A stretch of DNA of 64,000 nt from Blautia sp. GTDB lineage: Bacteria > Bacillota > Clostridia > Lachnospirales > Lachnospiraceae. The notes below the pieces were generated by a model. It saw only the letters and a list, made by a program, of their open reading frames with translations. It was not told the DNA's origin and made no database searches. Both the position numbers and the translations under genes were made by a program. Every line of letters starts with the position of its first letter. The stretch's first letter is position 1. Location: contig JAFVGK010000189.1 in the NCBI GenBank assembly GCA_017475035.1, forward strand, positions 1 to 64,000, given 5' to 3'. Shown in pieces: positions 28,142 to 56,918 of this stretch.

Positions 28142-28359
28142 GATGACCCTTTCCTGATCGTACGTTGATCGAGTACAGTACCTCTTCTGTACAGCCTGCC
28201 CTTAGGATCTGTGCATAAATAACCTTTACATCCGGCGTGTCTAAATCCGCACGGGCTGCATTGCTGTCATTCGCCGCAGCCCGCCGCGGCTCCTTCCGTC
28301 GCCTTGCCTGGACGGATTTTATCCTGCACCATCTGTTTAGGTCGTTTTTGCACAGCTCC

Positions 28360-30237: not shown

Positions 30238-30251
30238 GGTATTCCTCCTTT

Positions 30252-38619: not shown

Positions 38620-38718
38620 TACTTTATCTTTCCTTATTTGAAATTTTTCTTAATTACTTATTACAATTTTGTTATGTAAGATTCTGGTGACATTGTCGTT
38701 TGGGCGGATTGGGGATAA

Positions 38719-38756
38719 GAAAAAGTCCTGTCTTTGAACCAGCCAAAGACAGGACT
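38719..38756 (-). terminator. Terminator after the RiPP precursor genes
   Basis: A perfect 13-bp stem (38724-38736 with 38744-38756) and 7-nt loop are followed on the minus strand by tttttc. It separates the precursor operon from surface protein 1. Confidence 0.85.
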
Positions 38757-38828
38757 TCTCATCATTCAAAAAAATCCGGGGCAGACGCACATTTTGTCCG
38801 CCTTGTATCCGTTTTTTACAGCAAAGTT

Positions 38829-39242
38829 TTATACCTTGGTAGCACAGGCTTCTGCCATACAAAAATAGCCCCCGCAATCTGCCGCACAAGAATACAACGG
38901 GCAAGGTCCTGCCGCGCCACAAGAATACGTCGTGCAGGGTGGTTTATAAACATAACCAGGACAGCCCCATGCATGGCAGAATAATTCAGGACATTGTTCA
39001 TCATATGTCGAGCATATTATTAAGTTCAGGCCGCCTGTTACTTTTTCCGCTGCTTCATCTCCAAGCTCTCCTGGCTCAACCATTTCCAGCTGAAATCCTT
39101 CCGGCAGTTTACGGTCCGCCAGCTTTTCCAAAGCAGCTTTTACATCCTGCCTGGCTTCCTTCCGAAATTCTCCGTCTTCCTTCGCTTTCTGGTTTGCCTT
39201 CTGAAAAAGCTCCTCTAATTCTTCCTTTGTCCACTTTTCCAT
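38829..39242 (-). CDS. NHLP-leader RiPP precursor peptide, copy 1
   Basis: A 137-residue precursor. The 71-residue leader (MEKWTKEELEELFQKANQKA... ending KVTGG) fits the nitrile-hydratase-like leader peptide family: a helical EEFRKEA...LEKLA.RKLPEGF pattern and a double-glycine cleavage site. The 66-residue core has 11 Cys at core positions 6, 13, 18, 23, 32, 37, 43, 48, 52, 57 and 62, mostly five apart. The start is the ATG after tggaggagacgct; the longer frame to 39266 is not needed. It is the last of four precursors in the operon, probably modified by the radical SAM enzymes upstream and cut by the C39 peptidase transporter. Confidence 0.85.
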   Translation of the reverse strand: MEKWTKEELEELFQKANQKAKEDGEFRKEARQDVKAALEKLADRKLPEGFQLEMVEPGELGDEAAEKVTGGLNLIICSTYDEQCPELFCHAWGCPGYVYKPPCTTYSCGAAGPCPLYSCAADCGGYFCMAEACATKV

Positions 39243-39377
39243 AGCGTCTCCTCCATAAGGGTCCATCCGTAAATAAACGGATCAATCTTCTGGTCTTTTG
39301 TCCGGCTGCACGTATCAAAAAAGTTCACATAGACCTTCGACAGCAATCAGGTCGGAAGGCAGGACGGAAGAAAACCA

Positions 39378-39803
39378 TTATGCCAATGCGGCGCATATAT
39401 CTGCTGTGCAAAAATCCGCGACGCAAAATGCAGCGCAGGGTACTGTGTATGCAGCACAGGGTCCTATGCTCTCCAGCAGGCAGGGAGCTTTTGCGGCGCA
39501 CATATAACCACCGCAGCTCCATAAAGCACAAAATTCAGGACAGCCCTCATACTTGGGGAAAATTAAATCAATAAGGCAATTATCACTCTGACCGCCTGCT
39601 GCTTTTTCCGCTGCCTCATCGTCAAGCTCCCCGGACGCAACCATTTCCAGCTGCATTCCTTCCGGCAGTTCCCGTCCCGCCAGCTTTTCCAAAGCAGCCT
39701 TTAAATCCTGTTTCGCTTCTTTTCTAAATTCTTCATCTTCCTTTGCTTTCTGGTTAGCCTTCTGAAAAAGCTCTTCCAATTCTTCCTTTGTCCATTTTTC
39801 CAT
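39378..39803 (-). CDS. NHLP-leader RiPP precursor peptide, copy 2
   Basis: A 141-residue precursor with a leader almost identical to copies 1 and 3, ending KAAGG at residue 71. The 70-residue core differs in sequence but keeps 11 Cys (positions 5, 17, 21, 26, 31, 37, 45, 52, 56, 61, 66) and the pentad-like ending CVADFCTADICAALA. The ribosome binding region tggaggaaacgct is identical to that of copy 3. The spacer to copy 1 repeats words of the spacer to copy 3 (ttttgtccggctgcac), showing tandem duplication of the whole unit. Confidence 0.85.
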   Translation of the reverse strand: MEKWTKEELEELFQKANQKAKEDEEFRKEAKQDLKAALEKLAGRELPEGMQLEMVASGELDDEAAEKAAGGQSDNCLIDLIFPKYEGCPEFCALWSCGGYMCAAKAPCLLESIGPCAAYTVPCAAFCVADFCTADICAALA

Positions 39804-39872
39804 AGCGTTTCCTCCATAAGGATCCATCCGTAAATAAATAGATCAATCTGCCGGGCTTTTTGTCCGGCTGCA

Positions 39873-39922
39873 CCTGTCAAAAAAAGTTCACACAGCACTC
39901 TATGCCCGCTTTTTTGACAGGC
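39873..39922. repeat. Inverted repeat between precursor copies 2 and 3
   Basis: A 12-bp stem (cctgtcaaaaaa with ttttttgacagg) encloses about 26 nt. It may stabilise or trim the transcript between precursor genes. Confidence 0.45.
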
Positions 39923-40063
39923 ACATCCGAACAAAAATCCTCAGCAGCCTGTTCCTTTTATTTTCGCCCGGTTCCTAAATGATTCAAATCCAGAAGGTCA
40001 TAAAAACACAGAGACAACAAACAGCTGTAAGTTACTGCCGGAGGGCAAGGCGGGAGAAAATCA

Positions 40064-40483
40064 TTAAGCATGTGCAGCGCATATTACTGCTCCGCAAATA
40101 TCAAATCCGCATATATCCGCACTGCAGGGTGCCGGGGCTACGTGTGTGGCACAGATTTGCGGCGGACAAAAATAAACATGACCGTAAGTGGGGCAGCCCC
40201 ATGCACCACATAAGTCAGGACAGCCCTCATACTTGGGGAAATTTATATCAATAATGCAATTTTCGCTCTGACCGCCTGCCGCTTTTTCCGCTGCCTCATC
40301 GTCAAGCGCTCCGGACGCAATCATTTCCAGCTGAAATCCTTCCGGCAGTTCCCGTCCTGCCAGTTTTTCCAAAGCAGCCTTTATATCCTGCTTAGCTTCC
40401 TTCCGGAATTCTTCGTCCTCCTTCGCTTTCTGGTTAGCTTTCTGAAAAAGCTCTTCCAATTCTTCTCTTGTCCATTTTTCCAT
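40064..40483 (-). CDS. NHLP-leader RiPP precursor peptide, copy 3
   Basis: A 139-residue precursor: 71-residue NHLP leader ending KAAGG, then a 68-residue core with 10 Cys at positions 5, 17, 21, 26, 35, 40, 49, 54, 59 and 64. The core end CSADICGFDICGAVICAAHA has a strict five-residue Cys register that resembles a pentapeptide repeat (xADIC). Its first 25 core residues (SEN C IIDINFPKYEGCP) resemble those of copy 2, so the two are closest relatives. The start ATG follows tggaggaaacgct. Confidence 0.85.
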   Translation of the reverse strand: MEKWTREELEELFQKANQKAKEDEEFRKEAKQDIKAALEKLAGRELPEGFQLEMIASGALDDEAAEKAAGGQSENCIIDINFPKYEGCPDLCGAWGCPTYGHVYFCPPQICATHVAPAPCSADICGFDICGAVICAAHA

Positions 40484-40530
40484 AGCGTTTCCTCCATAAA
40501 GAACAATATGAAACGAATCATTCCCGGGTC

Positions 40531-40576
40531 AAAGCCTGTTCCCGCTGAAAGCTTGTCTGCTGTGGGAGCAGGCTTT
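40531..40576. terminator. Hairpin between large and small precursor genes
   Basis: A 13-bp stem with one mismatch (40531-40543 with 40564-40576) is followed on the minus strand only by ttgaccc. It may reduce read-through or protect the upstream message, and so set the ratio of large to small precursors. The rest of the 213-bp gap shows no clear promoter. Confidence 0.45.
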
Positions 40577-40696
40577 TGACAAGGCTCGATACGGGCAGAT
40601 ACATGGGCAGATCCCTCATGAAATGATCGTATCGAACCGGACCATCAGAGTACCGTCCGCAAAATAATCCGAGGGGATTATTTTGATCCGCAATCA

Positions 40697-41647
40697 TTAA
40701 TTGCCGCTGAACAGACCGTCAGCTCCACACTCATTTCCGTCGCAGTTGCCGTCATACCAGCTGATATTGGCTCCGCAAAGATCTCCGGCGCACTCTAAGT
40801 TCGCCAGGCAGCCTGCAACTGAGCAGATTGCCGCCGCGCAGAACAGGTCAGCCGCGCAGGCGCCAAGGCCGGTCACATTTCCAACGCAGGCGCCATCAGC
40901 CGCGCAGGCTGCTGCTCCACAGGCATCACCCGTACAGAAGCCCTCTGCCGCACAGGCTGCCGCACCGCAGGCTGCCGCAGAACAAACTCCGGCCGCAGCG
41001 CAGGCCGCAGCTCCACAGGCATCCGCGATACAAGCCGCCTGCGCTCCACAGGCTGCTCCGCCGCAGGCTGCCGCGCCGCATCCTCCTGCGGCTCCACACC
41101 CATCAGCTCCACAGACCTCTCCCAGGCATCCGGCATTCGCCGCACAGGCATCACCGCCGCAGGCATCCGCAGCACACCCGCCAAAGGCTGCGCAAGCCTT
41201 TGCGGCGCAGGCTGCCGCAGCACAGGCATCCGCCGGGCAGGCTGCCGCAGCGCAAACGTCTGCCGGACAGCCGCCAATCTGGCCGGCTGCAGCACAGACA
41301 CTGACAATCAATGCGATGGAAATAGATACCTCGTCACCGTTTACGTCATCCTTGCAGGAAGATCCGCTGGTAAACCCATCGATGTCGCTTCCGCCGGCAA
41401 CGGACTGAAGACCCTTCAGATCAATTTCATCTCCCGTGAAATTCGGCAGCACATACGCGGCAGCATACGCATTCTCACCTTCAACAAACCTGAGCTGGAA
41501 GCCTTCCGGAAGCTTCCGTCCGGCTATCTTTTCCAGTGTTCCGATCTGATCCGCCATCAGTTCCTTACGGAATTCCGGATCAGACAACGCCATCTCGTTT
41601 ACTTTCTTGTACAGCTCTTCAAGCTCTTTTTGTGTCCATTTTTCCAC
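40697..41647 (-). CDS. Large NHLP-leader precursor with a 230-residue Cys/Ala/Gly core
   Basis: A 316-residue precursor. I set the start at the GTG at 41647, which gives VEKWTQKELEELYKK aligned to the MEKWT starts of the small precursors and has aaggggga 7 nt upstream. The leader runs to GG at residues 85-86 (LKGLQSVAGG). The 230-residue core contains 35 Cys, nearly all in the spacing C-x4-C-x4-C-x5, a 16-residue register repeated from about core residue 60 to 170, with x4 spacing before it. Between Cys stand mostly Ala, Gly, Asp. I know of no natural product with this pattern. It may be a substrate of the adjacent SPASM and PoyD-like enzymes, or a carrier-like structural protein. Confidence 0.8.
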   Translation of the reverse strand: MEKWTQKELEELYKKVNEMALSDPEFRKELMADQIGTLEKIAGRKLPEGFQLRFVEGENAYAAAYVLPNFTGDEIDLKGLQSVAGGSDIDGFTSGSSCKDDVNGDEVSISIALIVSVCAAAGQIGGCPADVCAAAACPADACAAAACAAKACAAFGGCAADACGGDACAANAGCLGEVCGADGCGAAGGCGAAACGGAACGAQAACIADACGAAACAAAGVCSAAACGAAACAAEGFCTGDACGAAACAADGACVGNVTGLGACAADLFCAAAICSVAGCLANLECAGDLCGANISWYDGNCDGNECGADGLFSGN

Positions 41648-41661
41648 AGTGTAGTCCCCCT

Positions 41662-42966
41662 TCAGATATTGATTACATACCCTTTCTGGAACATCTGGTT
41701 CAGAAATTCCCATAAGGCAGTTTTCCATGAATCCGTCAACCCTGTTCCTCTTATTATTTCCTCAAACATCCCTCCTTTCTTCAAAGCGGAAATCATACAT
41801 TCATTATACATATTTCTGGGAATCCGATATCCGACCCCGTCCCCTTTCAGGTAAAGAAAGTCCTCTGATGGTTCTATCTGAATATACGGATGAAGTATCA
41901 GCTTTTCCTCGTCAGGAAGCCGTTCACATGCGTGGCGCCGGTACAGACCTGCCAGTTTTTCCGCAAATTCCCTCTGATCCGCAAAAGAAACGCTCTCCCT
42001 GATACGGTACCCACATGGATGCTCCTCATCCGGAAGCACAGGCTCCAGAAAGATCATCCGGCGTGTTGCAAGATTTACCTTCACGCCTGATACACAACAG
42101 ATGCTGTACCGTATCTTTTTCCTTCCTTCCAGAGGACGGTTTCTGCCCGAATCAGAAGCCGCGATCAGAGACTCCTTGTTATTCGGAAGCAGCTCCACGT
42201 TTGCCAGCTCCTCCGGAGAGAATTCCTGAGAAATCCGACGAAACTGGCCGATGGAGCGAACGCTCAGCCGCAGCCGTGCCTGACCTGCAAGCCTTTCTTC
42301 CCCCAGGAATCTTATCAGAGAGTGAATCCTTTCCTCTTCTCTGTCTGCCACAGCCGTCGTAGTCTGGGGCACCTCCCCCAGTACCTCATCCATATCCATA
42401 AGAAACCGCTCGTAATCCGGATGATCCAGAGGCTCTGTGGCAAAATAGCATGGCGCATCTCCGGCAATACCTCCAAGGTACTCCCCGGCAGCCGCCAGGA
42501 TATCCTTCCAGAAAGCCTGCTCATAGGGCGCATCCTTTACCCATCGCTCCGCCATCAGGCCGCAAAAGCTGCAGCCGACACGGCAGCCCTGGCTTAGTTC
42601 GAAAGCCAGAGGATAATAAAAAATATTAGGATGCTGACGGATAGCGGAAGATTCCAGTCTGCACCGATTCCGGATCCGCTGCAGGTAGGCATACATCTGA
42701 GGTTCCCGAAAAGAAGACGGGCTGACTCTTTGCTCGACATATCCGGAAACCCTGCGATTCCGTTCCCGAAATTCGCAAAAATATATGTTTCCTCCCAACT
42801 CTGAGAATCTCCCCTTACCCATCTCAAGGATCGCCTCCCGCATAAGACGCTCCTCACCTGCCGGAAACATTCCGGGAATCTGTTCCTCTGCGTCTTTGCG
42901 AAAAGCCGGGTCAATCTGATAGGTTTCCCAGAGTCTTTTAAAGCGGCCATAACGCCCGTCATCCAT
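41662..42966 (-). CDS. PoyD-like radical SAM peptide epimerase
   Basis: A 434-residue radical SAM enzyme of the PoyD type, which converts L- to D-amino acids in RiPP precursors carrying an NHLP leader. The 4Fe-4S motif C-x3-C-x2-C is at Cys128, Cys132 and Cys135 in the family setting HPNIFYYPLAFELSQGCR. The N-terminal region (FKRLWETYQIDPAFRKDAEE) resembles the leader-like segment often seen in this family. It overlaps the SPASM gene by 8 bp upstream and is 14 bp from the large precursor downstream. Which residues it epimerises is unknown. Confidence 0.85.
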   Translation of the reverse strand: MDDGRYGRFKRLWETYQIDPAFRKDAEEQIPGMFPAGEERLMREAILEMGKGRFSELGGNIYFCEFRERNRRVSGYVEQRVSPSSFREPQMYAYLQRIRNRCRLESSAIRQHPNIFYYPLAFELSQGCRVGCSFCGLMAERWVKDAPYEQAFWKDILAAAGEYLGGIAGDAPCYFATEPLDHPDYERFLMDMDEVLGEVPQTTTAVADREEERIHSLIRFLGEERLAGQARLRLSVRSIGQFRRISQEFSPEELANVELLPNNKESLIAASDSGRNRPLEGRKKIRYSICCVSGVKVNLATRRMIFLEPVLPDEEHPCGYRIRESVSFADQREFAEKLAGLYRRHACERLPDEEKLILHPYIQIEPSEDFLYLKGDGVGYRIPRNMYNECMISALKKGGMFEEIIRGTGLTDSWKTALWEFLNQMFQKGYVINI

Positions 42967-44293
42967 TCTGCTCTTTCCTTCCCGCCTGCTGCCTGCTCAT
43001 CTTATATTCGTAGAAAAGCTCCAGGAGGTTTTCCAGATTTCCTTTAAAATATACACAGGAGCTTTGTTTTTCTTCCGCACGAAGGTTTTTCTGGCGGATC
43101 CGATGGCAGCCGCCGCCGCAGACAGGGAAATAAAAGCATTCTTTACATTCCGGATCATCCAGGAAGCTGCATCCTGTCATGCCTTCCGCGATCAGCCCCA
43201 TATTCCAGTTGTCAAAGCGATCTACCGTGCCGACCACGCGTTCCTTGATGCCTACGTCGTCCCAGCATTTGTAAAGCTCACCTTCCGGCCCTATGACAAA
43301 TCCGTTGCGCTTCGTGAGCACGCAGGCCGGAGACATGCGCTGCGGATAAATATTCAGAGGAGCGATCTGGTATTTCTCCATCATGTCGGCAATGAATTCA
43401 CCCTGCTGGACCGGATCGAAAAAGCACCCGCGATCAGGATGGCTGTCTCCCTTGACGAAACCCGGATAAACCGTGATCCGCCGTCCGAAGTCCTTCGGAT
43501 ACTTTTCCTGCATCATTTTATAGACATAGGCAAACTCTTCGCTGTTTCTGCCGTCTACATTTACGCGCACATGCAGCTTTCCTTTAAAGTTCGTCTGCAT
43601 CAGGCCCTCGATATTCTCAAGGATACGGTCATACGTGGGCAGCCCTCCCGTCAGATAACGCCTTGCGTCGTGGGTTTCCTTCTTCCCGTCCAGGGTAATC
43701 TGCAGATACGTAATATTCAGGTCGTTTAATTTTGCCGCGCGCTCCTTCGTCAGCAGATATCCGTTTGTGATCATGCCGGCGTCATACTTCTTGCCCATAT
43801 CATTTAAACGTCTGGTAATGCTGCAGATCCTGTCAAAGGCCAGCAGCGGTTCCCCGCCGTACCAGGTAATATGCAGCACGTCTGAGTTGAAGTGCCGGAT
43901 GAAGTTCATGACCTTATCCTCGACCTCCTGAGACATCCCATGTCCCTTATGGCTGGTTTCAAAACAATAGCTGCAGTCAAAATTACAGGCCGTTGTGATC
44001 GCGAAGGTCAACGTCAGTGCCCTGTCCGCGTAAAGATTGGTGAGATGACGCATCTTCGTAATATTATATAATTCCTCATCCTTGCCGTCTTCCACCAGAA
44101 AGCCATACGCCCTGAGCTGCATGTAAAGCATGGGAACATCGGTATAATCGTACCCTTCCGGATCCTCCATGATTCCCCGTATCACAGGAAGCTCGTCGTC
44201 CTTTACGCACATAAAGGCTCTTGACGCCGATGAAAATAACATCCATCCGTTTCTCTTCGACTTAAACAACTTGCTGTACCTGGACCATTTCAT
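42959..44293 (-). CDS. SPASM-domain radical SAM peptide maturase
   Basis: A 444-residue enzyme. The radical SAM motif CNFDCSYC lies at residues 103-110, followed by WYGGEPLL and the barrel. The C-terminal SPASM region has cysteines for extra iron-sulfur clusters (PACVLTKRNGFVIGPEGELY, then KCWDDVG, ECKECFYFPVCGGGCH). Relatives build thioether bonds from Cys to alpha, beta or gamma carbons in sactipeptides and ranthipeptides, or other carbon crosslinks. With Cys-rich cores in the same operon, thioether formation is a sensible guess. It overlaps the preceding ABC transporter gene by 32 bp and has its own aggaaagggg site. Confidence 0.88.
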   Translation of the reverse strand: MKWSRYSKLFKSKRNGWMLFSSASRAFMCVKDDELPVIRGIMEDPEGYDYTDVPMLYMQLRAYGFLVEDGKDEELYNITKMRHLTNLYADRALTLTFAITTACNFDCSYCFETSHKGHGMSQEVEDKVMNFIRHFNSDVLHITWYGGEPLLAFDRICSITRRLNDMGKKYDAGMITNGYLLTKERAAKLNDLNITYLQITLDGKKETHDARRYLTGGLPTYDRILENIEGLMQTNFKGKLHVRVNVDGRNSEEFAYVYKMMQEKYPKDFGRRITVYPGFVKGDSHPDRGCFFDPVQQGEFIADMMEKYQIAPLNIYPQRMSPACVLTKRNGFVIGPEGELYKCWDDVGIKERVVGTVDRFDNWNMGLIAEGMTGCSFLDDPECKECFYFPVCGGGCHRIRQKNLRAEEKQSSCVYFKGNLENLLELFYEYKMSRQQAGRKEQNG

Positions 44294-46847
44294 AAAATTT
44301 CCCCTTTCCTTCGATCAATTTATCATAACTGCCTTGTTCTATGATGCGTCCCTGATCCATGACCAGGATCCGGTCACAATTCTGTAGTGTAGAAAGCCGA
44401 TGGGCTACGGCCACCCGTGTTGCCGAAAGACTGTTAAGGCTCTGGATGACTTTTTCCTGGGTGACGTTATCCAATGCGCTGGTAGCCTCATCAAAAATCA
44501 GTATTTTGGGGTTTGCCACTATTGCTCTGGCAATCAGGATCCTCTGTTTTTGTCCCCCGGACAAGGTCTGTCCCTCCTCCGATACCGGTGTCATAAGTCC
44601 CAGCGGCATCGCCTGAATATCGTCCTTCATCCCTGCCTTCTCCAGGGCGTTCCAGACTTCTTCTTCTGTCGCTTCCGAATTTACGATCTTAATATTCTGC
44701 AAAATCGTTCCGGTTAACAGACTTCCGTCCTGCAAAACGCAGCCGATCCTTCTTCTTAATACGGTTAAGTCCAGTCGATTCAACGGTACTCCGTCAATAT
44801 AAATCTGTCCCATATCCGGTTTTGCAAAACCCAGAAGCAGACGGATCAGCGTTGACTTTCCGCAGCCGGAAGGACCCGCGATCCCGATATATTCTCCCGG
44901 CTGGATATGCACAGAAATATCCCGGAGAATTTTATTGTTTTTATCATACCCATAAGATACATGTGAAAATACAATATCTCCTGATATATTTTTCAGGATC
45001 TGCCCTTTACCGGGCTTTTCAGGAATTTCCCTCAGAACCCCTACCGAGTCCTTCACGATCGGAATCATTGCCGCAAGGGAAACCATATCCGTGGTCACTT
45101 TCAATACCGCTCCGGCAAACAGACTGTTCGCGGTCAGGAAAGCCAGAAAAGCACCCTGGCTCATCTTCATCCTGCTGCCCATGGTTCCGTAAAATAAGAT
45201 CAGCCCCGCGCCGTTTAAAAACGCCATTAACATACCGACGGTGCGGGCAAGATCATCGGTCTGGCGCCGGGTCTGGCCAAGCTCGGTTTCCTTTTCCATA
45301 TAGCGGCCAAGGGCATGTGTCTGTGCTCCGCCGGCTCTGAGAGTGGAAATTCCCCCAAGGCTTTGATATAAGAAAGAGCGGACATCTGTCAGAATACCGA
45401 TCCTCTTTATCGAATATCTTCTGGCCAGGATGCTTTGCACCGCTGTTACAGCGATCTCCAGCCCGGCCAGACCCAGACCGATCCACGCCAGTTCCGAAGA
45501 ATAATCAAACATCCTCTTCACATAGAGCAGGGAAAACAGTGTCTGTACAAGGATCTGGAAACCGTTGCGGATCACGGAAACGTACATTTCCGAGAGATGA
45601 AAAATACGATATGCCGTTGCCGCCTTTTCCTGCCCTCTGAAATAATACTCCGGCATATGAAAGGTTCTGTCATATACCGCCCCCTGAATGGCGTAAGTAA
45701 CCCTTCCGGCAATTCTTGCCATGGCAAGATTCTGCGCGACAGAAAACAGAAAATTAGCGATCATCAGCACAAGGAAGATCGAGCACATGGCATATGCCAG
45801 GGAAATATCTCCCATGGGAATGGCTCTGTCATAGATAATCCGGTTGAGATTGGATAAGCCCAGCCCTACTTCCGTTACCAGAAACATCGCAAACAACCAA
45901 AGGCAGACATCTGTATATGATACCTCATCCTTGCAATACAAAAGCACACTCTTTAAATCTACAGCCTCAGTGGAAAAAGGACGCAGTACTTCCCAGGCTG
46001 TCCCACCAAAAGCTGACTCCTCTTTTTTTGACATTGCACGGATATTTCTCTTTTCCGGATCAAAAAGATAGAGTCTTCCAAAACGGCGAAAGCAGACCAC
46101 ATATGCGTCTTTTTCTTCTTTCTCGGCAGAAAGGGTACCCAGAAGAGGCTGATACAGGTTTTTTTTCCAATCCGGGGGCAAATCTACCTCACGGCATATA
46201 AAGCCGGACATCCTTGCAATATTCTGCATCGACATCTCACCCTGGCCGCTTTCGCGGATTTTAGAAGGTGAGGCGATCGGTATATGACGGCGCTTACAAA
46301 GAAAAGCCAATGCATCATATAAAGCTTCCCCGCTTCGTTCAATGGATGAAATTTCATACGTCAGCCTGCCGCCCAGCATATTTCTGATACGTTCCGCGGT
46401 CTCTTTCTCCAAAGCTGCTTTCTGATCCGCAAGCTCTGTAATGGTATCCTGTCTTTCGGCGCACCATTCCTCATAACGGGAAAAAACGGTTTTCCAGAAA
46501 TCTGTCTTTCCTACATGCAGCTGTGCCAGACCGAATTCTCTTCCCAGGGTGAAAACGGAATCTTCCACATAAGCGGCATAGAATTTACTTTTGCCGGCAA
46601 GATTAACTCTGTCCACTACAGTAGATTCTCCGGGTACACATACAAGCACACATCGCTGTTCCGCCTCCGCAGGCGGAGCAGGTATCACGTCTCCTACCAG
46701 CGCTTCTCCCAGATGCATCAGCCTCAGAGGCTTATTCCCATCACGAGGAGAGAGAAATACATGAACACATCCTGATTTGACGAATCTGTCATCATCTCCT
46801 GCCGCAAGCAGAAATTGCTCCCTTACAGGCAGCGGCTTTTTCTCCAT
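44262..46847 (-). CDS. NHLM-type ABC transporter, ATP-binding/permease, second subunit
   Basis: A 861-residue protein. The N-terminal 370 residues hold a cyclic-nucleotide-binding-like and variable region without the C39 cysteine-histidine pair. Then come six membrane helices and an ABC ATPase with Walker A GPSGCGKST, signature LSGGQ, and ILIFDEATSALD. The architecture matches the second transporter of NHLM bacteriocin export systems, which pairs with the peptidase-containing one. The start at 46847 follows the stop of the upstream gene by 1 bp. Confidence 0.87.
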   Translation of the reverse strand: MEKKPLPVREQFLLAAGDDDRFVKSGCVHVFLSPRDGNKPLRLMHLGEALVGDVIPAPPAEAEQRCVLVCVPGESTVVDRVNLAGKSKFYAAYVEDSVFTLGREFGLAQLHVGKTDFWKTVFSRYEEWCAERQDTITELADQKAALEKETAERIRNMLGGRLTYEISSIERSGEALYDALAFLCKRRHIPIASPSKIRESGQGEMSMQNIARMSGFICREVDLPPDWKKNLYQPLLGTLSAEKEEKDAYVVCFRRFGRLYLFDPEKRNIRAMSKKEESAFGGTAWEVLRPFSTEAVDLKSVLLYCKDEVSYTDVCLWLFAMFLVTEVGLGLSNLNRIIYDRAIPMGDISLAYAMCSIFLVLMIANFLFSVAQNLAMARIAGRVTYAIQGAVYDRTFHMPEYYFRGQEKAATAYRIFHLSEMYVSVIRNGFQILVQTLFSLLYVKRMFDYSSELAWIGLGLAGLEIAVTAVQSILARRYSIKRIGILTDVRSFLYQSLGGISTLRAGGAQTHALGRYMEKETELGQTRRQTDDLARTVGMLMAFLNGAGLILFYGTMGSRMKMSQGAFLAFLTANSLFAGAVLKVTTDMVSLAAMIPIVKDSVGVLREIPEKPGKGQILKNISGDIVFSHVSYGYDKNNKILRDISVHIQPGEYIGIAGPSGCGKSTLIRLLLGFAKPDMGQIYIDGVPLNRLDLTVLRRRIGCVLQDGSLLTGTILQNIKIVNSEATEEEVWNALEKAGMKDDIQAMPLGLMTPVSEEGQTLSGGQKQRILIARAIVANPKILIFDEATSALDNVTQEKVIQSLNSLSATRVAVAHRLSTLQNCDRILVMDQGRIIEQGSYDKLIEGKGKFYEMVQVQQVV

Positions 46848-46848
46848 A

Positions 46849-49011
46849 TCACGTTTCCTTTCCCGCATAAAGCCGGGCGTACAGCCCCTGATCTGAACAC
46901 AGCTTCTCATGGGTTCCGGCTTCTGCCACCACCCCGTTTTCCATCACCAGGATCAGGTCACAATCCCGGATCGTTGACAGACGATGTGCGACAATCAGAC
47001 AGGAACAGCCCCTGTTTCGAAGATGGCTCATGATTTTTTTCTCATTCCAGACATCCATCGCGGAAGTCGCTTCATCCAGTATCAGGATCGACGGATGCTT
47101 AACCAACGCCCTGGCGATAGCCAGCTGCTGCAGCTGGCCTCCGGAAAAATTCTTTCCTCCTTCTTCCAGCCTGTACTCCATTCCTCCCGGTAAAGCATTC
47201 ACCATCCCAAGGGCTTCCGCGTCCGAAAGGGCCCAAAACAGATCTTCTTCCTTGGCAGCCTGATTCCACAGCGTCAGATTATCCCGGATGGATCCGGAAA
47301 AAAAGGCTTCTTTTTGTGAAACTACAGCGATGCACGAGCAACGAACCTCTTCGGGAATTTCTTCGAGCTTCACATCATCAAAGAGTATTTCTCCGTCCCA
47401 TGGTGTCAAAAGACCTGTCACCAATTTCGCTACCGTACTTTTTCCGCATCCGGAAGCCCCCACAATTCCTATTCTGCTGCCTGGTGACATACGAAACGAA
47501 ATATCCCGGACAACCAGCTTATTTTTCATATAGCCAAAGCTGAGATGTCTGGCTTCGATCGCTCCTTCCAGCGGCACATATGAGGCCTTCTCCTGATTCT
47601 CCGGGAAATAAGGATCATCAAGAGCTTCATGAATATCCTGCACAATTTCCATATCCGCTTTCAGCAGCTGCAGCTGCCGTTCCATAGACAACAGCTGACG
47701 AATAGGAGAAAGGAAAGAGCCAAGCACCTGGGTAAAGGCTGTCAGCATACCGATCGTCATTTCACCATTGATCACCAGGCCGCTGCCAACCATCAAAACC
47801 GTAACCGTAACCATCTGGAACATGGTCTGCGGCAATGCCCCCAGGATTTCACCGGAATAAGACAGGCGTGTCTCACTTTTTGTCGTAGCCGCATACTGAT
47901 CCACCAGCATGGAAAGATACTCATTTTCACAGCCGCTGGCTTTCACCGTGCCGAAAACCGAAAGACCGGCACACAGCATACCCATCATCCGGTTTTTGTC
48001 CTGGTTCTGTTTCATTGCCAGATCCCCCAGACGCCGCATCACGGTACTTAAAACAAACACACTTAAAAATGCGGCAAAGAGACTTAAGGCAGTCAGCTTT
48101 CTGCTGTACAGAAGCATGAGCAGGAAAAAGACCAGCGCCTGAAATACGTTTTGCGCCACATCGATCAGGCTGCCGTCGATAAATTCGTAAATCCTGCCCA
48201 CCGCTTCTTCCCTCTGGGCAAGATCTCCCGCATAACGCTGATCAAAAAAAGCCAGCGGCAGCCGAAACATCTTTCGAAGCAAATCCTGATTTGCCTCCAG
48301 CGTCTGCTCCACCTTCATGCGGGAAAGGATCCCGTTCCGCATATAATTCAGCCCCATCTGGCAAAGGGTAATCGTTGCAAGTCCCAAAAGAACGACACTC
48401 AGCCAGCTTCGGGCGGAAGCAAGCAATACGTGATCCAGGAAAATCTGAGTCAGGATGGGACTTAAAAGTCCGGGAATCACCAACACGATACCCGCCAGAA
48501 TAAGGAAAATCCAGTTACTTTTGAAATTCCTGAAGTTTTCCCCCATCTTCTCCTGGATGGGACGCTTTGCCTGTACCTTACGGAAGGCAAAACCAGGCTT
48601 AAAAACCAGGACCACCCCGGTAAAAATCTCTTCCAGGTCTGTTTGGGAAATCCTCCTGTGTCCAACCGCCGGATCATTGATCAAAGCAGAGTTCTTCTTA
48701 AACCCTTCCAGGACGACAAAGTGATTTCCATTCCAATGTAAAATACAGGGAAACGGCATTTCCCTGAGTCTCTCCATCGTGCAGCGATACCCCGAAGAGA
48801 GAAGGCCATACTCCCTTGCAGCCATTACGATCCCCGCCGCATTGCATCCGTCTCTGGAAACGCCGCACGCTGCTCTGACCTCTTCCATAGGAACATGGCA
48901 GCCATAATACCGCAGTATCATCAACAGGCTCGCCGCCCCGCACTCTGCGGCTTCCATCTGAAAAACAGCAGGAGTTTTCACATGGCGTTTTCTTCGTTCC
49001 TTTACTTTCAT
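46849..49011 (-). CDS. NHLM-type peptidase-containing ABC transporter
   Basis: A 720-residue bifunctional exporter. The N-terminal C39 protease has the catalytic Cys24 (QMEAAECGAASL), His97 (HWNGNHFVVLEG) and Asp113 (INDPAVGH), which cut after double-glycine leaders like those of the four precursors. Then come six membrane helices and an ATPase with GASGCGKST, FSGGQ and ILILDEATSAMD. It is paired with the second ABC protein downstream and an HlyD-like protein upstream. It should release core peptides from the GG sites during export. Confidence 0.92.
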   Translation of the reverse strand: MKVKERRKRHVKTPAVFQMEAAECGAASLLMILRYYGCHVPMEEVRAACGVSRDGCNAAGIVMAAREYGLLSSGYRCTMERLREMPFPCILHWNGNHFVVLEGFKKNSALINDPAVGHRRISQTDLEEIFTGVVLVFKPGFAFRKVQAKRPIQEKMGENFRNFKSNWIFLILAGIVLVIPGLLSPILTQIFLDHVLLASARSWLSVVLLGLATITLCQMGLNYMRNGILSRMKVEQTLEANQDLLRKMFRLPLAFFDQRYAGDLAQREEAVGRIYEFIDGSLIDVAQNVFQALVFFLLMLLYSRKLTALSLFAAFLSVFVLSTVMRRLGDLAMKQNQDKNRMMGMLCAGLSVFGTVKASGCENEYLSMLVDQYAATTKSETRLSYSGEILGALPQTMFQMVTVTVLMVGSGLVINGEMTIGMLTAFTQVLGSFLSPIRQLLSMERQLQLLKADMEIVQDIHEALDDPYFPENQEKASYVPLEGAIEARHLSFGYMKNKLVVRDISFRMSPGSRIGIVGASGCGKSTVAKLVTGLLTPWDGEILFDDVKLEEIPEEVRCSCIAVVSQKEAFFSGSIRDNLTLWNQAAKEEDLFWALSDAEALGMVNALPGGMEYRLEEGGKNFSGGQLQQLAIARALVKHPSILILDEATSAMDVWNEKKIMSHLRNRGCSCLIVAHRLSTIRDCDLILVMENGVVAEAGTHEKLCSDQGLYARLYAGKET

Positions 49012-49060
49012 GTCATTTCCCCTGTGATCATCCGTGTTTTACTCTCTCACATAAACTTTT

Positions 49061-49663
49061 TCAGAGTCCCATCATTTCTCCAAGCTGAGGAATTCCTAAT
49101 GAAATCGGTCTTACCTTCTTCAGCGTAATAATAACAGAGGCATACGTCAGATCATAAATATGCAGCTTATTCCCTTCGGAGCCGGACCAATAATACCCGT
49201 TTTCCGAAGCTTTGTCCTTGCGCAGACGGACCCTCACCGCTATGACAGGACCATTCTGGATAAAAGGACTGATGATCGTATCATCCGGAAGAAGCGTCCG
49301 CATTTCCTGCAGGGTCGTCAGTTCCTTATCCACATAAATGATTTTTCCTTCCATATGACCATACTGTTGATAATCATAGCCGGTAAGGATCACACTTGCG
49401 TCCATTCCTTCTTCCAAAAGCTTTCCCGTACTGATCGGAACCAGTGCGATCAGCTCACCATCCAGTCCGTCTATGGGATGATAGACTCCTGTCACGGTTA
49501 CCGTTTTCGCCAGCGTTCCGAAAAAAGCCCAAAAAAGAAGAGAACCTAAAACAAGAAGAATTCCGGCAAAAAGTCCGATATAAAAGCGTGGAATCAGACT
49601 GATCATCTGTTTTGGAACCTGCTTCCCGAAGGAATGCTTCACCTGTTTTTCTGATTGTTCCAT
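49061..49663 (-). CDS. HlyD-like secretion accessory protein of the NHLM exporter
   Basis: About 200 residues: one N-terminal membrane helix (YIGLFAGILLVLGSLLFWAFF) followed by a beta-rich extracytoplasmic part (TVTVTGVYHPIDG, VPISTGKLLEEGMDASVIL). It lacks the long coiled-coil hairpin of Gram-negative HlyD and is somewhat short for the family. The start was chosen at the ATG at 49663, which has gaggaa 6 nt upstream; other ATGs at 49669 and a TTG at 49687 exist. It follows the radical SAM gene with close overlap and precedes the transporter by 50 bp. Confidence 0.8.
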   Translation of the reverse strand: MEQSEKQVKHSFGKQVPKQMISLIPRFYIGLFAGILLVLGSLLFWAFFGTLAKTVTVTGVYHPIDGLDGELIALVPISTGKLLEEGMDASVILTGYDYQQYGHMEGKIIYVDKELTTLQEMRTLLPDDTIISPFIQNGPVIAVRVRLRKDKASENGYYWSGSEGNKLHIYDLTYASVIITLKKVRPISLGIPQLGEMMGL

Positions 49664-49673
49664 CTTCATTTCC

Positions 49674-51554
49674 TCATGAGTCGCCAAGTGTCGCTAAAGT
49701 CAGTGCCATGCCATCCGGGCAGATCACATACATACTGTCTAAGAGATAAGTAAAGGCATTGGTTATCTCCTCTTGCGCGTAGGTTTCCAGAAGTATTCTC
49801 TCCATCCGTGCATAGGCTGTTCCATGGTTACAGAACAGACAGATGTCTCTCGCGGCTCCTGTCAGGAATGACAGCGCCGTTTTTCTGCAAGGCCGGGTAT
49901 CCGCCATCACAAGGTAATCACCCCTGTCCGTCATAACAAGATGGCACCCATCCTTTCGGCTGTAAACCCTCTTCCACTCTTGTATCTGCCCGATCAGCCT
50001 GTCATGCCAGGACTTCATACTGCGGAGCCGCAGAGATGCGTCTCCGTCCAGATCCTCATAATAAAGCGCCATAGCCTTGATGATTTCTTCGTTCTCTCCG
50101 AAACAATACCGATAATATCTGTCCGGAGCCAATTCCAGTCCATACTGTTCCGGATGCGAAACATAACAGCTTCCCCGCTCGAATAAAATTCTGGAAAACC
50201 CTGTCGGCGGGGGCAGATGGAACAGCTTCGGGAGCAGGTTGATCAGCATCTCGTAATCCTCCTGTTCCTCTCCCGGAATCCTGTAAAGAAAATTCCAAAG
50301 CGGAATCAGGCCGCTGCGCCTGCAATATTTCAGGAACGCGATATGACCCGCTACTGTATTGCCTTTTCCCATCAGGCGCATCAGATGCCCGTTCAGACTT
50401 TCCAGACCGGACTGTACATAGCGGAATCCCGCGGCTTTCAAGGCAAAAATCTCCTCCTCCTTCAGATTCGGCTTTACCTCCGCCATACAGACCAGATGTC
50501 GGCCGGCGGCCTTCATCATCGGTAAAAGCTCCCTGATCGCATCATTGGAAAGGACATTGTCTGTAAATTCCACAAAAAGGGTCTCGTATTTTTCCGTCTG
50601 ATCCATGAGCTCTTTGAATATCCGGCCTGGAGATTTCGTTCGATAAACATTATGCTCTCCGTTCAAGGCGCAGAATGTGCACGGATGCTTTTCTCCCCAC
50701 CAGCATCCCCGGCTTCCTTCAATCAGGATCACCATCTGACACTTTTTTCCGTAATACTGATTTATGATCGGACGTAAGCCGTCAGAAGCCCGGGATAACT
50801 GTGCTAATACCGGAAGGAAATCATCAAACTGCGGAATCGGCATAGTATCCATATCCTTTGTCAGCCGATAAGGGATCATTTCCAGAGAATCCCTCTCTTC
50901 TTTCCGTACCACGCCATAGGGCAGAGGCGCATCTTCAATCAAAGCCTTTACGGCTTCTCCAAAAACCTCATCTCCCTCTCCGAAAAAGACCGCATCCACC
51001 TGAGGATAATACTTCAGCAGGATCTTTCCCGCCATCCCCGCGCAATTCGGTCCGCCCATCATTGTTTTTACTTCAGGCAAAAGCTCCTTTACCCTTTTCA
51101 GAATTGCCAGCGATGCATTCTGCTGGGCGAACAGCGAGGACGCTGCCAGTACTTTAGGTGAAAGGAGGCTGATTTCCTGCGCCGTCTCTTCCACAATTTC
51201 CCTGGCGGCACGAATGCCTTGCGTGATCAGATACCGGTAATGATCCGGATCCAGATCCGGGATACGGAAAGACGCCAGGGAGATATATTCATCCAGATCA
51301 GAATAATCCTTTTGTCCTGTCAGACCGGAAAACAGATACTCTCCGTGCAGGGTAATATCCGTTAACTGCAGAAATCCCCGAAGGACGTCCTCGCCCATCA
51401 GTTCGCACATGCGCATCATGGGATACACGATCTTTACAGCAAAACCAGCTTCCTCGAGAAGAGGCTGAAAAAGAGATAAAGCCAGGGAGGGTCTCGGAGG
51501 AAAATCATAAGGCGCAGAAAGAAGCACCACATCCATTATATTCTCTTTCACCAT
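49674..51554 (-). CDS. B12-type radical SAM RiPP maturase (putative C-methyltransferase)
   Basis: A 626-residue protein. Residues 1-210 resemble a cobalamin-binding domain (VVLLSAPYDFPPRPSLALSL, VLAASSLFAQQNASLA, MMGGPNCAG, FFGEGDEVF), but the DxHxxG cobalt-ligand motif is not seen. The radical SAM motif is C-x7-C-x2-C (Cys284, Cys292, Cys295 in GCWWGEKHPCTFCALNGE), as in the RiPP maturation radical SAM protein 1 family that includes proteusin C-methyltransferases. The C-terminal 150 residues are peptide-recognition-like and unassigned. It starts 31 bp after the stop of surface protein 2, with no terminator between. Confidence 0.85.
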   Translation of the reverse strand: MVKENIMDVVLLSAPYDFPPRPSLALSLFQPLLEEAGFAVKIVYPMMRMCELMGEDVLRGFLQLTDITLHGEYLFSGLTGQKDYSDLDEYISLASFRIPDLDPDHYRYLITQGIRAAREIVEETAQEISLLSPKVLAASSLFAQQNASLAILKRVKELLPEVKTMMGGPNCAGMAGKILLKYYPQVDAVFFGEGDEVFGEAVKALIEDAPLPYGVVRKEERDSLEMIPYRLTKDMDTMPIPQFDDFLPVLAQLSRASDGLRPIINQYYGKKCQMVILIEGSRGCWWGEKHPCTFCALNGEHNVYRTKSPGRIFKELMDQTEKYETLFVEFTDNVLSNDAIRELLPMMKAAGRHLVCMAEVKPNLKEEEIFALKAAGFRYVQSGLESLNGHLMRLMGKGNTVAGHIAFLKYCRRSGLIPLWNFLYRIPGEEQEDYEMLINLLPKLFHLPPPTGFSRILFERGSCYVSHPEQYGLELAPDRYYRYCFGENEEIIKAMALYYEDLDGDASLRLRSMKSWHDRLIGQIQEWKRVYSRKDGCHLVMTDRGDYLVMADTRPCRKTALSFLTGAARDICLFCNHGTAYARMERILLETYAQEEITNAFTYLLDSMYVICPDGMALTLATLGDS

Positions 51555-51585: not shown

Positions 51586-54500
51586 TTATTCATTCCTGTA
51601 TTTCTTTTTGCATATTGTGACTGTCATCGCTGTCAGACTGAGCCCAAGCAGCCACAGATAAAAGGCGCCATGCGTGTCATCCGCCGTACGGGCTGCTTCA
51701 GTTGTCACGGTCTGCGGCTGTCCATTCTGTGTCGTTGTGGTATTAGTCGTGGTAGTTGTATTTTGCGTATATGTGCCGTTCACCGTTCCGCCGGAAGTCT
51801 GATTTGTATAGACTGTACCATCTCCGGGAAGGGAATACGGTATTCTTGTAATCACATATGCCGGGGTCACTGTCACCGTTATCCTGATCGGTGTCGGCGT
51901 CACGGTAACTGTCATCGGCGTCGGCGTCGGGGTTCCCGGCCTCGATGTCGGCGTCGGAGTTCCTGGTCTTGGTGTCGGCGTCGGAGTTCCTGGTCTCGGC
52001 GTCGGCGTCGGGGTGTCTGGCCTGGGCGTCGGTGTAGCCGGCCTTGGCGTCGGTGTTGCGGTACCCGGAATCCGATTACCGATCCACTGATTCGTTATGA
52101 CAACAACCGGTGTCTCGATATCATCCATCGATACCGTTACCGCTCCATCATTGGAGATTGTCGGAACATACTCGCCGTCATCTGTTTCGTCCGGAACCAG
52201 TTCGCTGATATAAAATGTCAGCTCCGGGCTCTCATCCGTCAGATAAACGGTCAGGTCAGCGCTGGTCGATGAATTTCCTTCCATTCCCAGCATAACCTCC
52301 GGTTCAGATACATATTCATCGGCGTATTCCATCATATCCTCATCCAGATATAATTCCGCCGCAAATGTATCGTCCACAGGAAGCGGAGCCCCATTTTCGT
52401 CAACCACATACTTCTCAATCCTGAGACGGCCTTCGATATAGTATCCATATGGCCATGTAATATATGTGTTGGTATATTCTACAGCCCCCTGATCCCCGGC
52501 CTGTACCTTAATGACATGCCTTCCGTCATACAGATCTGTCGTATATTCGTCACTTTCCATGATAACACCATCTTCATCTGTCTCAGCAAGATAATAGGTG
52601 CCTGGAGATATATTCGTGAACATAACCGAAGCTTCGGAAACATTCAGATAAATCATTTCCAGGGTCGACGCGTCTACCGTTTTCGCTTTGACTGCAGCTG
52701 TTGCCGCCAGATTATCAAAATTCTCATCCGTGAACAGGGAAACATAAGCGACTTCATCCATGGCACACAAAGGTCTGTGGTTCTCTCCCCATTCCAGCTT
52801 TCTGGTGACCAGAAGAGTCGCTGTATCAGTCTCTGGTCCCTGTGTCGGTACCGGTGTCGCAGTAACCTCCGGTCCTGGTGTCAAGGAAGGAGTCGGCGTG
52901 ACAGTCTCTTCGGCTGATGGCGTTATGGAAGGTGTTGGTGTGACAGTTTCTTCGGCTGATGGTGTTATGGAAGGAGTCGGCGTGACAGTTTCTTCGGCTG
53001 ATGGCGTTATGGAAGGTGCCGGTGAGGTCTCCTCATAGGATGCTGCTTTGAAAGGTACGGAAATATGCTCTTCCCGATTCGTAATAACCCATTCTGAACC
53101 GTTCCAGGTAAACAGACGGAAGAAAACATACATCGTAAACTCGGCGTCACGATTCATACCGTCTTCTACACCGATTTTCCAGGCTGTCTCTTTCTTTCCT
53201 TCGACTTCCCTCATGGACCAATAAGCCGGCACCCATCTGCCGTCTCCTGCAATCAAAGGAGAATATTTATCCTCTGCGCTTGCGCCGTTTGCCTGGAATT
53301 CATGGAACACATTCGGGCGGAACTCAAGAGGCTCTTCCAGCCCTGTCACGGTACAATCTGTGATCGGCGGAATATACGGCCTGCGCGGCCCGGGAGTCTC
53401 CGTCGGCGTTACGGTCACGGTGGTCCCGGGTGTTATGGTCGGCGTCGTCTCCGGCACTGCCGTTGGTGTTGTCTCCGGCGTCACGGTCGGCGTCGCTTCC
53501 GGGACTGTCGTCGGCGCTGCGGTCGGCGTTGTCTCGGGAACTGTCGTCGGTGTTGTGGTCGGTGTTGCCTCGGGGACTGTTGTCGGCGCTGCGGTCGGTG
53601 TTGTCTCGGGAACTATCGTCGGTGCTGTGGTCGGTGTTGCCTCAGGGACTGTTGTCGGCGCTGCGGTCGGTGTTGTCTCGGGAACTGTCGTCGGTGACAC
53701 TGTTGGAGTCAGAATATAAGAAACCGTCTTGAATGTCGCAGGGATATACCCTTCATTATTTGTTATAATCCAATTGGATCCGTCCCAGGTAAACAAGCGG
53801 AAAAACACATACATCGTAAATTCCGCATCCCGGTTGATTCCGTTTGCTGCCGCTATTTTCCAGTTTGTTTCCTTGCTTCCTCCGGACGGACTCATGGACC
53901 AGTAAGCCGGTACCCATCTTCCATCACCCTGAACCAATACAGGATAATAATCGGCAGCGCTCACTCCGTGAGGTTCAAAATTATGGAACACGCCAGGCCG
54001 GAACTCCAAAGGCTCTTCAAAGCCTGTCACCGTACAATCTTTTATCGGAGGAATAAAGGCCTCGCGCTGCGTCGGTACCGGCGTCACTGTCATTACTTGC
54101 CCGGGTATCACAGTCGGCGTTGCCTCAGGGGCTGTCGTCGGCGTGCTTGTCGCCGTTGGCGACGGTGTATTCGTCGGCGTCGGCGTTGGTGTCGGCGTGT
54201 TTGTCGGCGTTGGCGTCGGCGTCGGTGTATTCGTCGGCGTCGGCGTCGGTGTATTCGTCGGCGTTGGCGTCGGCGTGTTCGTCGGCGTCGGCGTCGGGGT
54301 ATTCGTCGGGGTCGGCGTCGGCGTGTTCGTCGGCGTCGGGGTCGGCGTGTTTGTCGGAGTCGGCGTCGGCGTGTTCGTCGGAGTCGGGGTCGGTGTGTTC
54401 GTCGGAGTCGGCGTCGGCGTGTTTGTCGGGGTCGGCGTCGGTGTATTCGTAGGCGTCGGCGTTGGCGTCGGCGTGTTTGTCGGGGTCGGCGTCGGTGTAT

Positions 54501-56757: not shown

Positions 56758-56884
56758 TTCCTTTCCTCCTCCTGAACTGCAATCTGCTGCCAACAGCAGC
56801 CCCTTGCCAATGTATTTTCTGGCATTTATAACACATGCTTTATCTTTCTTTGTAACATATAGGGTTATTCGTTTATACGATCCC

Positions 56885-56918
56885 ATTATATTATATCAAA
56901 CTCGATAAAAGAATGCTA
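56885..56918 (-). promoter_or_regulatory. Promoter of surface protein 2 and the RiPP operon
   Basis: Minus-strand tagcat (56918-56913), 17-bp spacer, tataat (56895-56890); a second overlapping tataat lies at 56890-56885. The layout matches the surface protein 1 promoter. The leader is about 125 nt. Confidence 0.6.

Follow-up and report, generated by a model that had tools for sequence, protein, structure and literature searches.

A proteusin-like operon of Blautia sp. with Cys-pentad cores and three radical SAM enzymes points to a conserved, rare peptide family

What does a bacterium make from peptides that carry a cysteine at about every fifth position, when three different radical S-adenosylmethionine (SAM) enzymes are encoded beside them? 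This question is raised by an operon in a stretch of 64,000 nucleotides from Blautia sp. (contig JAFVGK010000189.1, positions 1 to 64,000; hereafter the window, meaning the whole stretch), which a first-pass annotation, made from the letters alone, had read as a proteusin-like operon for ribosomally synthesized and post-translationally modified peptides (RiPPs) in a Clostridia-type genome. An open reading frame (ORF) check of the window recovered all ten genes of that proposal on the minus strand within 38829-51554: four precursors with nitrile-hydratase-like leader peptides (NHLP), named P1 to P4, a PoyD-like, a SPASM and a B12-type radical SAM enzyme, and the export proteins. The leader, enzyme and NHLP-type export model matches agree with the proposed class. 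We think it somewhat likely that the operon belongs to a conserved, rare proteusin-type RiPP family, in which the three radical SAM enzymes would modify the cores and a C39 transporter would export them; the products would most likely be thioether cross-linked, partly D-configured, C-methylated secreted peptides.

The leader ends in a double glycine (GG) in all four precursors, which together with a transporter bearing a Peptidase_C39 domain gives the cleavage arrangement of proteusins. The curated NHLP leader model TIGR03793 scores P4 at 35.1 bits (E 8.9e-9), P2 at 23.4 (3.8e-5), P3 at 22.9 (5.7e-5) and P1 at 18.9 (0.001), all short of its cut-off of 50.9, which a relative in locus L054 passes with 57.5 bits. 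Our own leader profile, built from 22 seeds (18 relatives and all four precursors of the window), gives 6.1e-23 for P3, 5.6e-22 for P2 and 5.9e-22 for P1, all three being among its seeds, and with a profile in which P4 (first row) is aligned to six relatives, the solved NHLP leader 9cjx is recovered at E 1.1e-17. By these profiles the precursors appear to carry the nitrile-hydratase-like leader of proteusins, which the curated cut-off alone would miss. In the 22 loci compared, the leader profile finds 44 distinct precursors; L026 and L027 duplicate L055 and L056 and were excluded from the precursor counts. An LxxxxL motif is known for proteusin leaders (PMC10858898), and a similar motif, with I and M allowed, stands before GG in 40 of the 44 precursors, P1 and P2 being among the four that lack it.

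Exactly one precursor per locus carries a hydrophobic module, SxxLIxSxCAAA or a close form, in 20 of the 22 loci, the remaining two being L055 and L056. The module sits right after GG or behind a short insert; its pattern was defined after the sequences had been viewed, and the stricter form is found in 17 of the 44 precursors and the looser form in 20. P4 is the module peptide of the window, with a leader of 86 residues and a core of 230 residues that holds 35 Cys and only 2 Lys/Arg (20.5 kDa unmodified). Among the leaders of P1 to P3, the ratio of nonsynonymous to synonymous substitution rates (dN/dS) is 0.08-0.15, and it is 1.41 for the first 20 core codons of P2 versus P3, a small sample. 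Across the family, cores range from about 14 residues with two Cys up to 30 or more Cys; that of the short precursor of L048 is GTCIGNACGAHGEK.

Among the enzymes, the B12 enzyme combines a B12-binding domain (PF02310) with a Radical_SAM domain in Pfam and matches TIGR03975 at 477.9 bits, above the cut-off of 281.85; its Cys 284, 292 and 295 are invariant in 7 aligned sequences, window copy included. The PoyD-like enzyme matches TIGR04517 at 291.2 bits (E 1.4e-86), below the cut-off of 325, and its Cys 128/132/135 and Cys 291 are invariant, even when two distant copies are included, of which one scores above the TIGR04517 cut-off; from work on PoyD we guess that Cys 291 is the hydrogen donor. 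The best model for the SPASM enzyme is CefB (NF038107), at 211.5 bits against a cut-off of 600, and it is therefore related to CefB and not a member; TIGR04463 (205.4 bits) and TIGR04334 (189.9 bits) also match below their cut-offs. Its Cys 103/107/110 are invariant in 14 aligned sequences, window included, as are eight more Cys (290, 324, 343, 383, 386, 392, 396 and 413), which would fit auxiliary clusters, as expected. The closest of eight solved sequences by profile is 5wgg/5why, which we take to be CteB, a thioether-forming maturase. The SPASM enzyme has no close relative in plasmids (two records at E 1e-40, 30.9% and 29.3% identity) or phages (three records at E 1e-20, at most 34.0% identity) and no match in viral contigs, and a mobile-element origin was rejected on these searches. 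An unverified faecal phage scaffold (MT836101.1, 9864-11060) encodes a SPASM-type enzyme 34% identical to that of the window.

For each export protein the best model is an NHLP-type one, all below cut-off: TIGR03796 for the first ABC (ATP-binding cassette) transporter, ABC1 (807.4 bits, cut-off 853.3; Peptidase_C39 at 1.5e-37), TIGR03797 for the second, ABC2 (588.8 bits, cut-off 709.4), and TIGR03794 for the HlyD-like protein (79.2 bits, cut-off 156.2). The last is a short form of 201-210 aa that is also present in L040, L041, L043, L044 and L058, and a hydrophobic stretch at its N-terminus, identified by eye, probably anchors it in the membrane. The first pass had seen no LanM or cyclodehydratase, and indeed no LanC or YcaO domain was found in the ten ORFs (Pfam, E up to 0.1), and a lanthipeptide or azole peptide was rejected on this result. 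A SCIFF ranthipeptide was likewise rejected, since no SCIFF model is among the NCBIfam matches (E up to 0.1) of the four precursors.

The gene set recurs elsewhere. We scanned contigs with two short peptide patterns, taken from an alignment of three SPASM proteins, and obtained 20 loci, which together with L066 (from a genome search) and the window make the 22 compared loci; because the scan was limited to these two patterns, more distant relatives were missed. The locus titles name Lachnospiraceae, Bacillota, Ruminococcaceae, Streptococcaceae, Lactobacillales, Treponema, Defluviitaleaceae, Prevotellaceae and Chloroflexi, all as metagenome-assembled genomes (MAGs); one title gives the rumen as source, and most of the others appear, from isolate names, to be gut-derived. 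A SPASM enzyme, a PoyD-like enzyme and NHLP precursors occur together in 19 of the 22 loci. The distance matrices of the SPASM and PoyD-like enzymes are strongly correlated (r 0.90, n=12, near copies excluded; 0 of 5000 permutations in a Mantel test), and in the SPASM tree, from which L042 was excluded as a near copy of L041, a single branch with 100/100 support separates the six long-core rows from the rest. None of the seven long-core loci, window included, has a GNAT-like gene; of the other 15 loci, 13 carry one near the SPASM gene, and three of six such GNAT-like proteins scanned have a GNAT domain in Pfam. The GNAT-like gene measures about 300-370 codons in L045-L054, L057, L059 and L066, and in several short cores the last residue is Lys, a possible hint of selidamide-like acylation.

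The family is also thinly spread. At E 1e-90, SPASM relatives are present in at least 2 of 397 genomes of the family, at least 2 of 392 of the order and at least 1 of 398 in the phylum sample, the own genome counted in each; these samples overlap, and at most four candidates per genome were scored in the rows examined. At E 1e-30, 13 of 194 related genomes, the own included, have SPASM matches, with identities of at most 36% beyond the own genome and the best two of G185, a genome of the same order (45% and 43%); 11 stretches around those matches hold no PoyD-like gene. PoyD-like genes were found in 2 of 295 genomes of the order and precursors in 2 of 291 genomes of the class, again with the own included, the other genomes being G156 and G1226, respectively. 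As judged from these comparisons, the family is conserved and rare, and its scatter suggests that it has probably moved horizontally. Three observations stand apart from these counts. G156 (L072:8238-11270) has two tandem PoyD-like genes (340.5 and 322.1 bits), beside which the leader profile finds no precursor. The closest relative, L040 (SPASM 82%), lies on a contig titled Chloroflexi, most others being Bacillota, either a mislabelled MAG or a transfer. A VADVADVACTSC-type repeat is found in an open frame at L033:1922-2224, which lies near two SPASM-like genes and may be a shadow of the other strand.

The first pass had described the cores as having Cys about every five residues, and the order found is sharper than that. 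After the module, the P4 spacings run 5 5 5 5 5 6 5 5 6 5 5 6 5 5 6 5 5 6 5 5 6 5 5 6, and then become less regular. Two 5s and one 6 make up 22 of the 32 three-spacing windows of P4, a number reached by 1 of 20000 permutations; the corresponding counts are 24 of 28 each in L041 and L042 and 27 of 28 in L058 (0 of 20000 each), 9 of 28 in L043 (3 of 20000), 8 of 27 in L044 (94 of 20000) and 0 of 9 in L040, whose spacings are 5 and 15. P4, L041, L042 and L058 are thus mostly built in a 5-5-6 register, that is, a 16-residue superrepeat with three Cys; a 48-bp tandem period lies at 40951-41075, inside P4. In each of the seven long precursors, the first pentad Cys follows the module Cys at a distance of 9. 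We do not regard the gene set as a product of chance, because relatives share the genes, the leaders have the low dN/dS given above, and the Cys order of P4 and its three relatives in this register is reached by 0 to 1 of 20000 permutations.

Which known system does this resemble? CefA and CefB (NF038108 and NF038107) share with it a core with Cys at every fifth position and a related SPASM enzyme. The P4 core passes the CefA model over a stretch of the core (32.3 bits, cut-off 30), and single P4 stretches fall below cut-off in a six-frame genome search with CefA; among relatives, L041 (49.7 bits) and L058 (48.0) pass, and L043 (27.4) and L040 (22.6) miss. Membership of the whole system in CefA/CefB was rejected, as the CefB cut-off is missed. 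In a genome of the window's genus, a CefA peptide (L038:12008-12268, 63.2 bits) lies beside several radical SAM genes and ABC transporters; unlike the window, it lacks an NHLP leader, its stretch contains no PoyD-like gene next to it, and its spacings, 6-6 followed by 5s, lack the 5-5-6 register of P4. Contig 19 of the own genome (L001, L037) holds a weak CefA match (E 0.00115, below cut-off) with an internal stop, away from the operon, and the stretch around it has none of the operon's genes. NCBIfam already names Cys-every-fifth peptides, and therefore this spacing alone is not new; the pairing of a SPASM enzyme with such cores, which the first pass had thought new, is that of CefA and CefB.

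PoyD-type proteusins (polytheonamide, landornamide and others) have in common with the window the NHLP leader, GG, a PoyD-like enzyme, NHLP-type export and a B12 methyltransferase; unlike them, the window has a SPASM enzyme of the Cys-peptide type, Cys-pentad cores of up to 230 residues, and neither LanC-like nor YcaO domain in its ten ORFs. In the cyanobacterial plp cluster, a PoyD-type epimerase already occurs together with a different radical SAM enzyme, and joining an epimerase to a SPASM enzyme is therefore not in itself the novelty that had been claimed. Ranthipeptides (freyrasin/PapB, SCIFF, NxxC) resemble the operon in having a SPASM maturase and regular Cys with Asp/Asn nearby, but the window differs in its C-x-x-[N/D] spacing (PapB uses Cys-X3-Asp/Glu, PMC9413430), its NHLP leader, its PoyD-like and B12 enzymes and its lack of a SCIFF match. 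Selidamides, which are proteusins with a GNAT (PMC9505594), recall the GNAT-like gene of the 13 non-long-core loci; unlike them, the window and the other six long-core loci have none. In searches of the open PubMed Central literature, outside which preprints and most subscription papers lie, no report was found that unites Cys-every-fifth cores, NHLP leaders, PoyD and a 16-residue register, none turned up that uses the name 'Cys-every-fifth' or describes the CefA/CefB pair, and, as the first pass had stated, no described compound of this kind appeared. Within the literature searched, the conserved family and its 5-5-6 register appear to be new.

How might the three enzymes act on these cores? 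We propose that the SPASM enzyme would link Cys to a nearby residue, most likely that at C+3 (C-x-x-[N/D]), and so form a series of small thioether rings like those of ranthipeptides or sactipeptides. The PoyD-like enzyme would epimerise certain residues to D, both in the hydrophobic module and in the Ala/Val-rich pentads, the B12 enzyme would put methyl groups on carbon, and the C39 ABC transporter would cleave after GG and export the cores. The long P4-type core, tied to one SPASM clade, may have grown from pentads into the 16-residue 5-5-6 unit. The ring proposal draws on 32 distinct short cores (all from precursors of at most 135 aa outside the window, several of them close relatives; identical cores counted once, and one cut at a too-early GG with Cys counts unaffected), in which 33 Cys pairs are five apart. 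The C+3 residue of these pairs is N in 14, D in 10, K in 4, E in 3, F in 1 and Y in 1, so that 24 of the 33 read C-x-x-[N/D]-x-C. Since Asn, Thr and Asp serve as acceptors in the radical thioether cases known so far (PMC8326336), and PapB forms Cys-Asp thioethers across 0-6 residues and accepts D residues (PMC9413430), we favour C-x-x-[N/D] rings for the short cores and, counting Glu as well, for the 18 of 33 P4 Cys after the module that have D, N or E at C+3.

Several findings weigh against the proposed family and its chemistry. Only one of the six models for enzymes and transporters is passed at its curated cut-off, and the NHLP leader model is missed as well; the below-cut-off matches are strong for the enzymes and ABC transporters and weak for the leaders of P1 to P3. 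L055 and L056 have a SPASM enzyme and an NHLP precursor, with no PoyD-like gene in the available stretch; the same holds for the PoyD-like gene in L059, which is cut within its SPASM gene. A B12 enzyme of this kind is present in 12 of the 22 loci (some contigs are cut, and a 31-bit match in L056 is excluded), and methylation is therefore not essential to the family. Correlations with the transporter are lower, with r 0.46 for SPASM versus ABC1 (n=10; 82 of 5000 permutations) and 0.33 for PoyD versus ABC1 (336 of 5000). The PoyD tree groups the long-core loci as one clade in 22% of bootstrap trees, which makes the co-evolution of SPASM and PoyD close, not strict. Finally, 15 of the 33 P4 Cys have no D, N or E at C+3, with Ala in 12 of those, so that not every Cys fits the ring idea; these 15 may be linked elsewhere, linked at the alpha carbon, or free.

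The same 15 sites would be accommodated if the Cys pentads stayed free thiols or disulfides and bound metal or soft ligands, P4 then being metallothionein-like or a thiol-rich secreted matrix, and the SPASM enzyme introducing a different modification, such as a carbon-carbon bond or an altered backbone. A core that is so rich in Cys and so poor in Lys and Arg would suit such a role, and the finding that none of 31 Cys is changed between L041 and L042, where 17 residues differ, speaks weakly for it. We nonetheless consider it unlikely, as the C-x-x-[N/D]-x-C arrangement kept in the short cores would be superfluous for a metal store, and the NCBIfam models that come closest describe enzymes maturing Cys-rich peptides. 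That the operon is a decayed or silent relic would be in keeping with its rarity at E 1e-90, and is nevertheless very improbable: the frames are all open, the gene order is tight, a likely terminator is present, the leaders have low dN/dS and the cluster-binding Cys are invariant in the SPASM and PoyD-like enzymes.

The 16-residue register itself could be read as one turn of a three-sided beta-solenoid, made of three pentads with three Cys columns, in which modification locks the coil; we give this reading only a small chance. Besides the 5-5-6 order of P4, L041, L042 and L058, the spacings of 10 and 15 in L040, L043 and L044 would fit a 15-residue unit with some Cys missing, and beta-helix models exist for bacterial ice nucleation proteins in which each loop takes up one 16-residue repeat (PMC3196904). 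In 38 full repeats, 16 of them from the near copies L041 and L042, the C+3 residue varies by side, being N-rich, D-rich or H/Q/F/Y-rich, and a within-protein permutation reaches this preference in 0 of 5000 cases each for L041 and L042 and in 72 of 5000 for L058. However, the C+3 preference is not significant in P4 (794 of 5000); among 16 tests over the four proteins, C+1 and C+2 have no side preference in any of them, and for C+4 the count out of 5000 is 129 in P4 and 215 in L058. The short relatives are moreover too short for coiling. AlphaFold2 models the leader of P4 as helices and strands (predicted local distance difference test, pLDDT, of 72-81 in blocks of residues 1-50), and the cores of P4 and L058 at a pLDDT of about 26-38 with no solenoid, from shallow alignments of 7 and 5 rows; this low confidence counts against a self-folding solenoid and would be compatible with order after maturation. 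Taken further, and as a still more doubtful speculation, the long precursors would be giant repeat-protein RiPPs, in which cross-linked, partly D 16-residue units form a three-sided rod with three sulfur columns and with one acidic, one Asn/Lys and one His/Gln/aromatic face, exported as a stiff, thioether- or metal-bearing product. We know of no RiPP like it.

The features of the operon are listed in Table 1. In transcription order, the genes are those for the B12 radical SAM enzyme, the short HlyD-like protein, the C39 ABC transporter, the second ABC transporter, the SPASM enzyme, the PoyD-like enzyme, P4, P3, P2 and P1. The overlaps or short gaps that had been described hold for the enzymes; the precursors are spaced further apart, by 213 bases between P4 and P3, 260 between P3 and P2 and 135 between P2 and P1. 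The longest ORFs of P1, P2 and P4 begin too early, and their starts were moved inwards to MEKWT-type starts, with Shine-Dalgarno-like sites placing that of P1 at 39242, that of P2 at 39803 and that of P4 at a GTG at 41647, preceded by AAGGGGG; the P3 start at 40483 was unchanged. The hairpin of the likely terminator at the operon end has a folding energy of -24.9 kcal/mol (z -5.59, a value that 0 of 200 shuffled sequences matched) and is not listed by simple terminator scans.

Giant surface-type proteins with TPTPT linkers flank the operon on the minus strand, at 51586-56886 and 31097-38452; they have one segment in common, by eye, and the longer one has a Cna_B domain. The upstream one stops 31 bases before the B12 gene. 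We do not count them in the operon because neither has a blastp relative among the ORFs kept from 21 related loci. Genes for GrpE, Hsp70 and a DnaJ/TPR/SEC-C protein follow one another on the minus strand at 26747-30914 of the window.

Table 1. Features of the predicted RiPP operon, with positions in the window
Feature	Coordinates	Strand	Basis
B12-binding radical SAM C-methyltransferase (RiPP maturation)	49674..51554	-	TIGR03975
Short HlyD-like secretion protein, 208 aa	49061..49687	-	TIGR03794, C-terminal part
C39 peptidase / ABC exporter, NHLP ABC1-like	46849..49011	-	TIGR03796, Peptidase_C39
Second NHLP-type ABC transporter permease/ATPase, ABC2-like	44262..46910	-	TIGR03797
SPASM radical SAM maturase related to CefB / TIGR04463 / Clo7bot maturases	42959..44293	-	NF038107, TIGR04463, TIGR04334
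PoyD-like radical SAM epimerase (putative)	41662..42966	-	TIGR04517
P4, precursor with hydrophobic module	40697..41647	-	NHLP leader and CefA models
Unbroken 5-5-6 stretch, Cys 142 to Cys 254 of P4 core	40886..41224	-	Spacing list, coordinates by hand
P3, 139 aa, no hydrophobic module, 68-aa core, 10 Cys	40064..40483	-	TIGR03793
P2, 141 aa, no hydrophobic module, 70-aa core, 11 Cys	39378..39803	-	TIGR03793
P1, 137 aa, no hydrophobic module, 66-aa core, 11 Cys	38829..39242	-	TIGR03793
Likely intrinsic terminator, operon end	38718..38775	-	18-pair hairpin running into U run

Taken together, the proposed family would unite two RiPP chemistries, proteusin epimerisation and SPASM maturation of Cys peptides, in scattered, mostly metagenome-derived bacteria. 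The range of cores under related enzymes makes it testable how one SPASM enzyme acts on many repeated sites and whether a radical maturase works on a repeat protein, and the short relatives should be easy bench substrates.

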